Part shown: positions 6,286 to 45,819 of the stretch, piece by piece
Layout: each line of letters begins with the position of its first letter
How positions within the stretch are numbered: the first letter of the stretch is position 1
Source: Desulfoscipio geothermicus
Lineage (GTDB): Bacteria; Bacillota; Desulfotomaculia; Desulfotomaculales; Desulfallaceae
Assembly (NCBI GenBank): GCA_016841205.1
Contig: JAENZP010000006.1
Span: 1-64,000, forward strand
Direction: 5' to 3'
DNA length: 64,000 nt
Notes under the pieces: generated by a model
Seen by the model: the letters and a program-made list of their open reading frames with translations, nothing else
What the model was told of the DNA's origin: nothing
Database searches by the model: none
Position numbers and translations under genes: made by a program

Positions 6286-7395
6286 TCAACCCTGAGATAC
6301 GGCCGGTACAAGGATGGAAAAGTATCTATCATCGCCAACAGGTTTAAATAGAGACGGACTGTCCTGACCGCTTAATTTTATAATAACTTCTTCGCTATCA
6401 ATTGACTTTAAAACATCTATAAAAAATCGCACATTAAAACCAACATCCAAAGGATCTCCTGAAAAATTAGACTCTAGCTCTTCTCTTATTCGACCGGTTT
6501 CAGTAAAAAAGTAAATCATCATCCCGTTAGGCTTAAAGTTTATATTAAAAACATTTCTCTTTGTATTAACCAATAAGGAAGCCCTCTCAGCAGCGTCTAA
6601 TAGTTTACTTACTGATGTTCTTACTTCACAAATATAATTTTCAGGAACAACTATTCTATAATCAGGAAACTGACCGGCAATAAGGCGGGACATTAAACAG
6701 ATATTATCAATTACAAAAAATACCTTATTTTCTGTAACATAAATATAAAGGCTGTCATCTATTGGCTCTAATATTTTAAATAGCTCATTAAGAGTTTTAC
6801 CAGGTACGGTAATATTTATTAATTCATCTGGTGGCGTTTCTAAGTGTTCTTCACATAAGGCTAACCTTCGTGTATCTGTGGCAACCATGGAAAGTAAACC
6901 ATTTTGATTAACCCGGATATTAACTCCAGTAAAAATAGGTCGGTGTTCTTCGGTAGAAACAGCAAAAATAACATGTTTAATCATATTTCTAAAAAGGTCT
7001 TGTTTTATTATTAAACTGGGTTTATCTGGAAAAGAAGGAAATATGGGAAATTCGTCAGACGGATAGCCGTTCAATACTACTTCTGAGTCACCATATATAA
7101 ATGTTGTAGTATTACTAGATATATCGCACTTAATATTAATGTCTATATCTGGCAATCTGGTAAATAAGCTTGATACATATTTTGCAGGTATTGCAGTAGC
7201 CCCACTAATAATAGTAGTTACGGGCATGGTGCAGCGAATGCCAAATTCAAGGTCAGTGGAAGATAAAAATAGCATATTGTCCTTACTTTCAAAATGCAAG
7301 CAAGAAAGTAATGGCATAGGACTGCGTTGAGCAACTGCTTTTTGAGAAATTTGTACAAGAGTATTTAATTTTTCCCTGGGAGCAATAAAATGCAT
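6286..7395 (-). CDS. dnaN: DNA polymerase III beta sliding clamp
   Basis: Ring-shaped processivity clamp that tethers Pol III to DNA. It has three repeated clamp folds and a typical C-terminus (FKPVGDDRYFSILVPAV). I place the start at ATG 7395 (MHFIAPREKL) because AAGGTGG lies 5 bases upstream; the GTG three codons earlier falls inside that ribosome-binding site. The resulting 369 residues match the family. It follows dnaA in the same direction after 128 bp. Confidence 0.97.
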   Translation of the reverse strand: MHFIAPREKLNTLVQISQKAVAQRSPMPLLSCLHFESKDNMLFLSSTDLEFGIRCTMPVTTIISGATAIPAKYVSSLFTRLPDIDINIKCDISSNTTTFIYGDSEVVLNGYPSDEFPIFPSFPDKPSLIIKQDLFRNMIKHVIFAVSTEEHRPIFTGVNIRVNQNGLLSMVATDTRRLALCEEHLETPPDELINITVPGKTLNELFKILEPIDDSLYIYVTENKVFFVIDNICLMSRLIAGQFPDYRIVVPENYICEVRTSVSKLLDAAERASLLVNTKRNVFNINFKPNGMMIYFFTETGRIREELESNFSGDPLDVGFNVRFFIDVLKSIDSEEVIIKLSGQDSPSLFKPVGDDRYFSILVPAVSQG

Positions 7396-7452
7396 AATAA
7401 CCACCTTAATATAAATAAAATATAGTAATAATTATAGTAGTGATTGTGAAAT

Positions 7453-7461
7453 AGTGGATAA
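7453..7461 (-). promoter_or_regulatory. Isolated DnaA-box-like site between dnaA and dnaN
   Basis: The 9-mer AGTGGATAA differs by one base from TGTGGATAA, the complement of the consensus DnaA box TTATCCACA. Many Firmicutes have a second box cluster between dnaA and dnaN; here I see only this one clear candidate in the AT-rich 128-bp gap. Confidence 0.4.
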
Positions 7462-7523
7462 GTGTTTATAAACCAATAACTATACAGGTTAAGTTAGTTA
7501 ACAAGGTTGTTAATAATATAAAA

Positions 7524-8864
7524 TTAATTTTGTTTAATTTTATTAACTAAATCATGTATTGTATGTGAAATAGTAATATCGTTTGCTATCTCGGTGGCAA
7601 TTTTGTCATGGGCGTGCAGTACTGTTGTATGATCTTTTCCACCAAAATGATTACCTATTTTAGGTAAAGATTCTGTGGTTAATTCACGGCATAAGTACAT
7701 GGCAATTTGTCGTGGGTAAGCGACAGTCCTGGTTCTTTTTTTTGATATCATATCCTCAAGTTTTATATTAAAATAAAGGGCTACTTTTTGTTGTATTAGA
7801 TCAATGGTAATATCTACTGGTTTTTTATCAGGCAATATGTCTTTTAGTATTTCTGCAGCTTTGTCCTTATTTATTAATTCGTTATTTAGAGAGCTATAAG
7901 CGGTCACCCTTATCAAAGCGCCTTCCAACTCTCTAATGTTGGATTGAATACGATCTGCTATAAAGGTTATTACATCGTCGGATACAGTGAGATTCTCAAG
8001 TTGGGCTTTTTTTTGTAATATAGCAATTCTTGTTTCATAATCAGGTGGTTGAATATCAGTAATTAAACCCCATTCAAAGCGGGAGCGAAGCCTGTCCTCC
8101 AGGGTAGGAATTTCTTTTGGGGGACGATCACTGGAAATAATAATTTGTTTGTTTGCTTCATATAAGGTATTAAAAGTATGAAAGAATTCTTCCTGTGTTG
8201 CTTCTTTACCAGCTAAAAACTGAATATCATCAATTAGTAGAATATCAATATTACGGTAGATATTTTTAAATTCAACTGTCTTTTCCTCACGTATAGCTCT
8301 GATTAAGTTATTGGTAAATTTTTCTGATGTAACATAGGCAACAATATAATTATCATTATGGTTTTGTCTGGCATAGTGGCCTATTGCGTGCATTAAATGA
8401 GTTTTACCTAATCCAACACCACCATAAATAAATAAGGGATTATAACCTTTGGCCGGTGATTCAGCTACAGCAAGGCATGCGGCATGAGCAAATCTGTTAT
8501 TATTTCCTACTACATAGTTTTCAAAATTATATCTAGGATTAAGAATAGAATATTTTAAATTTCTTAATTCATCAACAAGCCCACTGATGTGTTCATTAAC
8601 TTGATGTATTTCATCTTCCAGAATAAATTGGACTGTAGTATTAGCTTTCGTTATATCCGAGATAACTTCTTTAAATAAGAGTGCATAATTATTATTGAGC
8701 CAATCCTTTGAAAATTGATCTGGTACTCCAACATAAAAAATATTATTTTTTATAGAAATTGGTTGCATGGTATTTATCCATGTTGAGTATGACTTGGGGG
8801 TCAGTCTATTTTTAAGTTGATTTATGGTTTTTTTCCAAATGGAATTTACATTATTAAAAGTCAA
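7524..8864 (-). CDS. dnaA: Chromosomal replication initiator DnaA
   Basis: AAA+ initiator that binds DnaA boxes and melts the origin. The 446 residues comprise domain I (1-85), a short linker, the AAA+ domain with Walker A GGVGLGKTH (148-156) and Walker B ILLIDDIQFL, and a C-terminal helix-turn-helix domain with the signature GGKDHTTVLHAHDKI. Start is TTG, after AGGGGGATC. Its leader contains a palindrome of two DnaA boxes, suggesting autoregulation. Confidence 0.98.
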   Translation of the reverse strand: MTFNNVNSIWKKTINQLKNRLTPKSYSTWINTMQPISIKNNIFYVGVPDQFSKDWLNNNYALLFKEVISDITKANTTVQFILEDEIHQVNEHISGLVDELRNLKYSILNPRYNFENYVVGNNNRFAHAACLAVAESPAKGYNPLFIYGGVGLGKTHLMHAIGHYARQNHNDNYIVAYVTSEKFTNNLIRAIREEKTVEFKNIYRNIDILLIDDIQFLAGKEATQEEFFHTFNTLYEANKQIIISSDRPPKEIPTLEDRLRSRFEWGLITDIQPPDYETRIAILQKKAQLENLTVSDDVITFIADRIQSNIRELEGALIRVTAYSSLNNELINKDKAAEILKDILPDKKPVDITIDLIQQKVALYFNIKLEDMISKKRTRTVAYPRQIAMYLCRELTTESLPKIGNHFGGKDHTTVLHAHDKIATEIANDITISHTIHDLVNKIKQN

Positions 8865-8909
8865 TTGTTGATCCCCCTAAAGGTAATAAAATTTTTTTAG
8901 TAATAATTT

Positions 8910-8950
8910 ACACACAGAATTATTCACAGGATGTGGATAATTCTGTGTGT
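8910..8950. repeat. Inverted repeat containing two convergent DnaA boxes
   Basis: Two 19-base arms (8910-8928 and 8932-8950) are complementary except for one pair and are separated by only GGA. Each arm contains a DnaA box: TTATTCACA (8920-8928, one mismatch) and TGTGGATAA (8932-8940, perfect, opposite strand). It lies between the dnaA promoter and the dnaA start, so it would also fold as an RNA hairpin in the dnaA leader. Confidence 0.85.
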
Positions 8951-8966
8951 CGCAAGGCTTGAGAAA

Positions 8967-8995
8967 ATGATACCAAAACTTATTAATCTATTCAA
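8967..8995 (-). promoter_or_regulatory. Probable dnaA promoter
   Basis: On the minus strand TTGAAT (8995-8990) is followed after 17 bases by TATCAT (8972-8967). That is 4/6 and 5/6 consensus matches with ideal spacing. Transcription would start around 8960, just before the DnaA-box palindrome. Confidence 0.6.
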
Positions 8996-9137
8996 TAAAA
9001 ATTGAACTTAAGATATTTTTATAAAAAAACAATATATGTAAATAATTTTATGGTTTTCACAATTTGCACAGGATGTTAATATAAATACTGTGCACTTCTA
9101 TTATATACTGTAATGAGTAATACTGTAAAAGCATTGC

Positions 9138-9167
9138 TTGACTCAAAATAAAGGCATATTATATAAT
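9138..9167 (+). promoter_or_regulatory. Promoter of the rpmH-rnpA operon
   Basis: TTGACT (9138-9143) and a perfect TATAAT (9162-9167) are separated by 18 bases, about 70 bp before rpmH. It fires away from the origin. Confidence 0.75.
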
Positions 9168-9235
9168 GATAACATACATCTAGTATTTTCCATATTTTTG
9201 GAAATTTATAAGCTTTAAAGGGGGACACTTACTTA

Positions 9236-9370
9236 ATGAAAAGGACTTATCAGCCAAAGAAAAGGCAAAGAAAAAAAGTACATGGCTTTTTAAAAAGAAT
9301 GTCAACTAAAGCGGGACAGAATATTATCAAGAGAAGAAGGCTAAAAGGGAGAAAAAAACTATCTGCGTAA
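9236..9370 (+). CDS. rpmH: 50S ribosomal protein L34
   Basis: A 44-residue, highly basic protein starting [18 protein letters not shown], the canonical L34 sequence, ending in a lysine/arginine-rich tail. The ATG follows AAAGGGGGACACTTACTTA. L34 is part of the large ribosomal subunit. It is the first gene of the rightward operon rpmH-rnpA-yidD-yidC-jag, directly beside the origin as in most bacteria. Confidence 0.97.
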
Positions 9371-11285: not shown

Positions 11286-11292
11286 TTATGAT

Positions 11293-11328
11293 AAAAAACC
11301 CAGCACGGAAAAACCGGCTGGGTTTTTT
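11293..11328 (+). terminator. Rho-independent terminator after jag
   Basis: A 12-bp stem AAAAAACCCAGC (11293-11304) with GCTGGGTTTTTT (11317-11328), whose loop can form an additional CGG/CCG pairing. The right arm ends in six T. Confidence 0.9.
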
Positions 11329-11346
11329 ACAACGGAGGTTTTTTTA

Positions 11347-44430: not shown

Positions 44431-45819
44431 ATGGATTTACGTAGGGTTATCTTAAAAGACGGCGTTTATTTGGCTGTTCGTCAGTTATTGGGCATAATAA
44501 TCAGTTTGGTGGGAGTAATTTTAATTACCCGGGCTATTGGCCCGGGTAATTACGGCCTCTATGCCGCAGCCCTGGGCATCGTAGGCTATGCGGGCAACCT
44601 GGCGGGCCTGGGGGTACATGTCTATATCATTAGGCGGCCAAATGAGCCCGGTATGGACGTTTTCCACCAGGCTTTCACACTAATGTTAATTTCCGGTGTT
44701 TTAGGTGTGGTGCTGGGCACAGCGGCAGTGCCGCTGCTGCAGTGGTGGCTGCAAAATCCGGCTTTTGTGCCGCCCCTGTTGGTAATGTTGTTTACATTGC
44801 CATTGACTGTTTTATCCGGCCCGGCTATGGCCCGGTTGGAAAGGAATTTGCAATATCGATCCGTTGCATTTATCGAGCTGGCTGGTCAGCTGGTCAACTA
44901 TACAATTGCCTTGATACTAGCTTACCAGGGTAAGGGGGTGTGGGCACCGGTTGCGGGCTATGTAGTAGGGCAGCTTTATATGCTGGCAGCCACTTGCGCA
45001 GGGGCAAGAATCATGCCCCGCCCTTACTGGCGTTTATCCCTGGTTAAGGAAATGCTGAGTTACGGTGTGGCTTATTCGGCATCTATGTGGGTATGGCAGC
45101 TGCGCTTGCTGGTTAATCCATTGCTGGTTAGTCGTTTTGCTGGTCCCGAGGCGGTGGGTTGGATAGCCTTGGCCATTCGTCTGGTGGAGGCCCTGAGCTT
45201 TATCAAGGGAGTTACCTGGCGCATTTCCATTGCTGTTCTGGCTAAGCTGCACGGGAACCTGCACCGGTTAAAACAAGCATTGGAGGACGCAATGTTGTTG
45301 CAGGTATTGGCTGTCGGGCCGCTGCTGGCTGTGTTTGCCTGCGCTGCCCCCTGGTTATTGCCCCGTTGCTTTGGGGAGCAGTGGCAGCCGGTTTTGATAG
45401 CTTATCCTTTTATTGCGCTGGGGTATCTTATCAATGCTTTATTCAGTATACACTCTTCCGTACTGTATGTACTTGGCCGAAACTGGGAAGTAACGGGTTT
45501 TCACGCGGCGCACATAATTCTTTTTGCTGGGGGAGCACTATTATTTATACCCCGGTGGGGTTTACTAGGCTATGGCTTAGCTGAAGTTTTGGCGCTGGTT
45601 GGTTATTTAGTGATTCACTTTCAAGTGGGGCATCTGCTATGCCCTTCTTACAGAAGTGTGGTTCCCTGGTTGCTGGCTTTTTTGCCTCCGCTTTGGGCTG
45701 CGATAATTATTGTGCCGACAGGGTTACTTTTTTGGATACCTTTATTAATAATTGTAGCTATTACCAAACCAGGCGAAAAAATTATCGGGTATATGAAGCT
45801 TACCAAAATGAGGGAATAA
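44431..45819 (+). CDS. Polysaccharide flippase (Wzx, MOP superfamily)
   Basis: Polytopic membrane protein, about 460 residues and 12-14 helices, beginning with a short basic stretch MDLRRVILKDGVYLAV and RAIGPGNYGLYAAALGIVGY, typical of RfbX/Wzx. It translocates undecaprenyl-linked repeat units across the membrane. No strong ribosome-binding site favours a start; ATG 44431 gives the usual N-terminus, and ATG 44389 adds 14 residues. It sits with two GT2s and Wzy. Confidence 0.9.
   Translation: MDLRRVILKDGVYLAVRQLLGIIISLVGVILITRAIGPGNYGLYAAALGIVGYAGNLAGLGVHVYIIRRPNEPGMDVFHQAFTLMLISGVLGVVLGTAAVPLLQWWLQNPAFVPPLLVMLFTLPLTVLSGPAMARLERNLQYRSVAFIELAGQLVNYTIALILAYQGKGVWAPVAGYVVGQLYMLAATCAGARIMPRPYWRLSLVKEMLSYGVAYSASMWVWQLRLLVNPLLVSRFAGPEAVGWIALAIRLVEALSFIKGVTWRISIAVLAKLHGNLHRLKQALEDAMLLQVLAVGPLLAVFACAAPWLLPRCFGEQWQPVLIAYPFIALGYLINALFSIHSSVLYVLGRNWEVTGFHAAHIILFAGGALLFIPRWGLLGYGLAEVLALVGYLVIHFQVGHLLCPSYRSVVPWLLAFLPPLWAAIIIVPTGLLFWIPLLIIVAITKPGEKIIGYMKLTKMRE

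Follow-up and report, generated by a model that had tools for sequence, protein, structure and literature searches.

An extended DnaA-box palindrome in the dnaA leader of Desulfoscipio geothermicus

Bipartite Bacillota origins and the dnaA region of the window

Control of the amount of DnaA in Bacillota is a central cell-cycle question. In the bipartite origins of this phylum, as presented in excerpts of work on B. subtilis and on oriC1 of C. difficile (PMC7561715; PMC4447404), the gene order is rnpA-rpmH-dnaA-dnaN; the rpmH-dnaA gap carries DnaA boxes of either orientation, and the dnaA-dnaN spacer carries boxes and possibly trios. The dnaA promoter region of B. subtilis is credited there with 12 boxes and strong DnaA binding (PMC4447404). 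Autorepression of dnaA by DnaA is described, again in excerpts, for E. coli, B. subtilis and other bacteria (PMC8203912) and, in a further account, for B. subtilis and other bacteria (PMC12112137), and in the E. coli and B. subtilis systems the boxes lie near the dnaA promoter (PMC8203912). According to the available part of another study, CRISPRi stopped replication in B. subtilis only at boxes 6 and 7, between dnaA and dnaN (PMC11019786), so an upstream cluster fits a regulatory role better than an essential origin role. Control of the leader at the RNA level is also possible in the phylum, as illustrated in part of PMC12112137 by ArrA, an antisense RNA over the B. subtilis dnaA 5' UTR, although ArrA is a separate antisense transcript, unlike the in-leader hairpin considered below.

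The window (the whole 64-kb stretch of D. geothermicus DNA analysed here) shares both the gene order and the distribution of boxes. Its minus strand carries dnaA (7524-8864, 446 aa, TTG start at 8864, identity confirmed by relatives) followed by dnaN, and its plus strand carries rpmH and rnpA from 9236 onwards, the names dnaN, rpmH and rnpA being taken from our reading of the open reading frames. Between 6 and 9 kb the sign of the GC skew switches from negative to positive, which marks this region as the origin, and the palindrome lies within the 371-bp rpmH-dnaA gap that adjoins the switch, at the position of an oriC1. Several TTWTNCACA-type boxes are present as in an oriC1, but the only two exact matches in 7300-9300 are boxes 1 and 2 of the palindrome, the others having one mismatch. 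This sets the locus apart from the B. subtilis and C. difficile origins as portrayed in the excerpts cited above: it has only two consensus boxes, and both sit inside an extended palindrome. On the far side of dnaA, the dnaA-dnaN spacer (7405-7523), a probable oriC2, contains the one-mismatch boxes TTATCCACT and TATTTCACA at 7445-7461 followed by trio-like CTACTA/TTACTA (trios read by eye), and is likely the unwinding side of the origin. The DnaA protein of the window retains the box-reading residues D, H, T and H (FGGKDHTTVLH) as named in the available text of PMC7561715.

We assign a probability of about 0.6 to the reading that the palindrome is a promoter-proximal dnaA operator and upstream oriC1 DnaA anchor of such a bipartite origin, made symmetric. 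The type of DnaA-box cluster is known; what is new is its genus-level extension to an almost perfect mirror image. Titles and abstract openings in the open-licence literature yielded no description of an extended palindrome in a dnaA leader.

Anatomy, rarity and promoter context of the palindrome

The palindrome spans 41 bp (8910-8950) and consists of two 19-nt arms (8910-8928 and 8932-8950), 95% complementary, around a 3-bp centre (8929-8931); its sole arm mismatch falls on the unconstrained fifth position of the DnaA box TTATNCACA. These dimensions are those given by the first-pass annotation, and the convergent DnaA boxes that it had placed in the arms are both exact matches to TTWTNCACA. 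Box 1 (TTATCCACA, 8932-8940, minus strand) comes first in the mRNA sense and is separated by the 3-bp centre from box 2 (TTATTCACA, 8920-8928, plus strand). A weaker box 3 with one mismatch (TTACACACA, 8908-8916, plus strand) follows 3 bp from box 2, stands to the right of the pair in the mRNA sense as TGTGTGTAA and makes up most of the extra right arm. Its mirror in the left arm, CGACACACA (8944-8952, minus strand), keeps the ACACACA half of a DnaA box and, by reading, has three mismatches to TTATNCACA. This left outer element may be a weak or partial fourth DnaA box; a true fourth site is doubtful because the TT is missing and the mismatches are three. Box 3's off-consensus C is reproduced in it as well, as pairing would require but DnaA binding would not. 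The array therefore has one mismatch in its right outer box and three in its left, rather than four full boxes like those of the palindrome of genome G155 described below. The annotation's further point, that the symmetry exceeds what two boxes require, holds for the left arm and is weakened for the right, which box 3 partly explains.

Counting repeats with a gap of 0-10 and at most one mismatch, the palindrome is the longest inverted repeat of the window at 19 bp, ahead of a runner-up of 15 bp, and the longest repeat in ten simulated windows was likewise 15 bp, so a chance origin can be set aside. The other long inverted repeats of the window lie at 44522-44552 and 11292-11329, with arms of 15 and 14 bp; the latter resembles a terminator between two plus-strand genes. 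A 101-bp query centred on this region, compared with the 3.38-Mb assembly, gave, as its only second strong match, the palindrome aligned to itself. We rejected a mobile or repeated element on the ground that the palindrome is single-copy in the genome. No exact match to the extended pattern was found in viral contigs.

Between the palindrome and rpmH lies a predicted dnaA promoter, P2 (8967-8995, minus strand; TTGAAT-17-TATCAT), with a TG before the -10 that makes it an extended -10 promoter; the pair of consensus boxes lies 26 bp downstream of this -10. Transcription typically starts about 7 nt after the -10, which for P2 is near 8960. On that basis the leader would measure about 96 nt, with the palindrome at roughly +11 to +51. 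Its location between promoter and start codon, as annotated, is borne out for the predicted P2 (8995-8967) and the TTG at 8864. The ribosome-binding site GGGGG (8873-8877, minus strand) lies outside the hairpin and is conserved in the genus. A second promoter-like site directed towards dnaA, P1 (9100-9129, minus strand; TTTACA-18-TATAAT), is identified by consensus match only, and its outline is conserved in the genus; an rpmH promoter-like site occurs at 9138-9167 on the plus strand. Upstream of P2, 9037-9081 contains a degenerate second DnaA-box-like array (ATTTGCACA, GTTTTCACA, TTATTTACA) that has the direct repeat CACAGGATGT in common with the palindrome and is partly conserved in the genus alignment.

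This arrangement suggests how the operator might work. DnaA would occupy the convergent consensus pair together with the weaker third box, all at about +21 to +53 from the predicted start. It would thereby confront the leading edge of RNA polymerase, blocking promoter escape or early elongation. Rising DnaA would lower dnaA transcription in a homeostatic loop, while the same complex would collect DnaA beside dnaA, whose far side carries the probable unwinding site. In the proposed history, the outer left flank was reshaped in the genus until it mirrored the right one, so that the array acquired two-fold symmetry, with strong sites at the two inner positions and weak ones at the two outer positions. 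Relative to known dnaA autoregulation, the boxes here lie downstream of the predicted promoter and are mirror-symmetric, and repression is presumed by analogy. The annotated roles in autoregulation and as an origin element are thus well supported by position, by conservation across Bacillota and by autorepression in B. subtilis, with binding and repression by DnaA predicted from these.

The palindrome also recalls the R6K A site of the ABC primosome, where a DnaA box also lies within a hairpin stem. If either strand of the palindrome folded as single-stranded DNA, boxes 1 and 2 would pair to make a single duplex DnaA box carried on a stem extension of 10 bp, and on this hairpin DnaA would load helicase; titles cited in PMC3657122 point to DnaB-loading DnaA-box hairpins in E. 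coli. The context here is chromosomal and double-stranded, however, and the likeness is one of geometry only; the predicted unwinding side, the dnaA-dnaN spacer, is about 1.4 kb away, and the closest relatives manage without the extension. We consider this explanation extremely improbable.

A convergent-box module in Bacillota dnaA leaders

To place the operator reading in a wider setting, we compared dnaA leaders from 56 genomes of relatives (the window's own included) and 80 named contigs, of which 130 of 136 had at least 150 bp upstream. Open reading frames were delimited by stop codons at both ends, which makes distances to start codons approximate. A convergent DnaA-box pair exactly 3 bp apart, with at most two mismatches in the pair, was present in 66 of the 130 leaders, and 49 of these 66 had a third box 3 bp beyond the pair, again with at most two mismatches. 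At no more than one mismatch per box, 3 bp was the modal gap both for convergent pairs (61 leaders) and for tandem pairs (64 leaders). The remaining 64 of 130 leaders have no exact 3-bp pair at the cut-off of two mismatches per pair, so the module is common but not universal; they include G015, which was counted as pairless owing to a short contig end though the pair and third box are present there. Two leaders, L011 (the same leader as G059) and L027 (the same leader stretch as L026), were excluded from the 64-site counts that follow but remain among the 66 and the 130. A strict three-box pattern occurred in 15 of 113 genomes of the class, and its reversed control gave no match.

The distance to the promoter is also preserved. 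Of 64 leaders, 54 carried an extended -10 promoter 10-45 bp ahead of the pair, compared with 6.9 (maximum 14) in Markov-simulated sequence, and the 26 bp of the window falls within this range. In 12 of 13 leaders of the window's own family the -10 lies 21-27 bp from the pair. For genome G001 the promoter scan chose a site downstream of the array (-44), whereas TTGAAT...TGATATCAT is visible upstream in the alignment. This distance is 19-38 bp in most leaders of the class and 41-43 bp in most Bacillus and Paenibacillus leaders; several Bacillus-type leaders have a box-like GTGGACA 2 bp, not 3 bp, from the pair.

The sequence TGTGTGTAA serves as box 3 in three genomes outside the genus as well (G010, G011 and G013), and the presence of box 3 in such leaders accounts for the right arm. 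The core pair with its third box is an ancient and widespread Bacillota module and the cluster type an ordinary one. The survey yields a simple, testable layout in which an extended -10 dnaA promoter is followed, with fixed spacing, by a convergent box pair and then a third box. One genome of the family also has a second DnaA-like protein match at 48% identity (G014:C169:2545-3858), either an extra dnaA copy or contamination.

The mirrored left arm, its pairing and the recurrence of symmetric arrays

The left arm is not accounted for by this module, given that leaders outside the genus show no extra flank pairing. Their 10-bp flanks form 163 pairs as against 170 in re-paired flanks, with 1-5 of ten positions paired in 59 of 60 leaders and 7 in one. 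Within the genus the locus was found in six of seven genomes, the seventh (G002) having neither a dnaA match nor a leader match, and in all six the left arm, ACACACAGA[A/C], mirrors the right, with 9 or 10 of 10 flank pairs. Symmetry ends at pair 19 in four members and at pair 18, bar a wobble at 19, in two; the right arm continues into TAA, and the left arm stops at the pairing limit. Across the six species, conserved columns amount to 8/10 in the left extension, 9/10 in the right, 8/9 in each box and 1/3 in the centre, compared with 6/17 between the -10 and the arm and 29/104 in the inter-promoter spacer, which places the left arm under constraint of box strength. Variation is seen at the centre bases and at the free N of each box, the remaining box bases being constant, and the left element takes the forms TAGCACACA and TGGCACACA elsewhere. 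Conservation of the arms beyond the 9-mer boxes, whose lack would have refuted the annotation's reading by its own criterion, was thus found in 6/6 genus members with the locus. TGTCGCA beside the left arm, which we took to be a possible overlapping Spo0A (0A) box, was dropped since the stretch is not conserved in the genus rows.

This conservation bears on whether the symmetry could have arisen by mutation alone. In quasi-palindrome correction, template switching copies one arm onto the other without selection, and two observations agree with it: both sides of pair 10 have changed in the window genome (C-G to A-U), as a single correction event would leave them, and the mirroring extends to box 3's off-consensus C. 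Retention of the left extension well above the spacers nevertheless needs selection. Moreover, the free-box-base pair (pair 5) is non-standard in three of six members and takes different forms (C.A, C.C and U.G); the persistence of these mismatches indicates that whole-arm correction is infrequent. Template switching as the sole cause is accordingly very unlikely. A different dimeric DNA-binding protein might instead take the conserved outer arms as half-sites of a dyad, but these would be separated by about 25 bp, with two DnaA boxes between them, and the wobble-type change at the outermost pair breaks the symmetry in two of six species; we give this proposal next to no weight.

A more serious competitor is that the arms are kept for RNA, as a stem-loop near the 5' end of the dnaA mRNA (about +11 to +51) that overlies the DnaA boxes and guards the transcript against 5'-end decay or sets early elongation pausing. 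A 19-bp hairpin is the predicted fold in all six genus members, with z of -4.7 to -6.3 when the three boxes were fixed and the rest shuffled, the lowest six of 66 leaders (the single-sequence fold of the window leader gave z -3.9). Standard RNA pairs fill 111 of 114 pair cells, and both variable outer pairs still pair: pair 19 changes from A-U to G.U in two species, and pair 10 is altered on both sides in the window genome only. The end of the left arm at the pairing limit also suits an RNA stem, and part of PMC3997798 describes 5' roadblocks that stabilize mRNA in Bacilli. The compensatory changes that the annotation proposed to look for thus exist at one pair, yet this single event does not exceed shuffles, of which 321 of 500 scored at least as high (103 of 500 for the covariation score). 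The non-standard pair 5 and the ordinary flanks outside the genus also speak against a stem kept for RNA, about 10 unpaired nt are predicted 5' of it, which is poor for 5'-end protection, and six species are too few to claim a wobble strand bias. Overall, the hairpin proposed in the annotation is certain as sequence and is upheld as a predicted fold, and any role in the RNA is putative; we see the RNA explanation as possible but on the unlikely side.

Other RNA interpretations were considered. A general RNA-hairpin extension of dnaA leaders is contradicted by its absence outside the genus, although 11 of 60 sites there had folding z below -2 compared with 8 of 114 control segments, a weak hint. 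An intrinsic terminator or attenuator was ruled out, as no G+C-rich stem with a U run occurs in 8800-9300. Rfam 15 gave no family at the gathering threshold; matches up to E 1 came from miRNA and archaeal sRNA models and scored 22-25 bits, against thresholds of 60-79 bits for these models, and the miRNA-model matches at 24-25 bits are likely what a perfect hairpin would produce.

Evidence from the wider phylum favours contacts with DnaA. Four-box palindromes with 12-bp spacing and 3-bp linkers were identified in 14 of 398 phylum genomes including the window's own (13 of 397 others) and in none of the reversed controls, and all nine loci fetched among the other thirteen adjoin rpmH. One of these, in another family (G155; L189, ~1500-1540), is a near-perfect four-box palindrome with dnaA 0.3 kb away. 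Symmetric DnaA arrays thus evolved at the dnaA-rpmH site on more than one occasion, and in the present genus the outer elements are weak. This recurrence is our chief ground for ranking DnaA contacts first and RNA second, and the operator and anchor reading remains the one we prefer. In a two-box search, in which 17 of 30 fetched loci had no DnaA, RpmH, RnpA or DnaN nearby, 14 of 75 sites among the matches listed had 3-bp linkers that were complementary throughout, compared with 3.0 after re-pairing (2,000 rounds, maximum 9), an excess that would also be expected from a shared base preference next to each box. Among the matches listed, 10-bp flanks with at least nine pairs numbered 4, compared with 1.5 after re-pairing (maximum 8), which is not above chance.

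The additional half of the palindrome might work at the DNA level, at the RNA level or at the two together. A combined interpretation, which we hold to be unlikely and advance as speculation, is that one stretch carries two selected codes: its DNA would be a DnaA operator, and its transcript would give the dnaA mRNA a conserved 19-bp hairpin. This dual element would have originated in the genus when box 3 of the ancient three-box module was mirrored, and separately in several other Bacillota lineages as four-box palindromes. The same bases would then sense the amount of DnaA as DNA and adjust it as RNA. Because the mirror arm is specific to the genus, compensatory mutants could tell a DNA role from an RNA role. 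Among the symmetric arrays themselves, the G155 palindrome has four consensus boxes and complementary linkers and is independent of the genus array. Four members of one distant genus (L194-L197, from G311, G483, G232 and G198) also carry four-box palindromes beside rpmH, and their linkers differ in complementarity, making them a good natural series for a covariation test.
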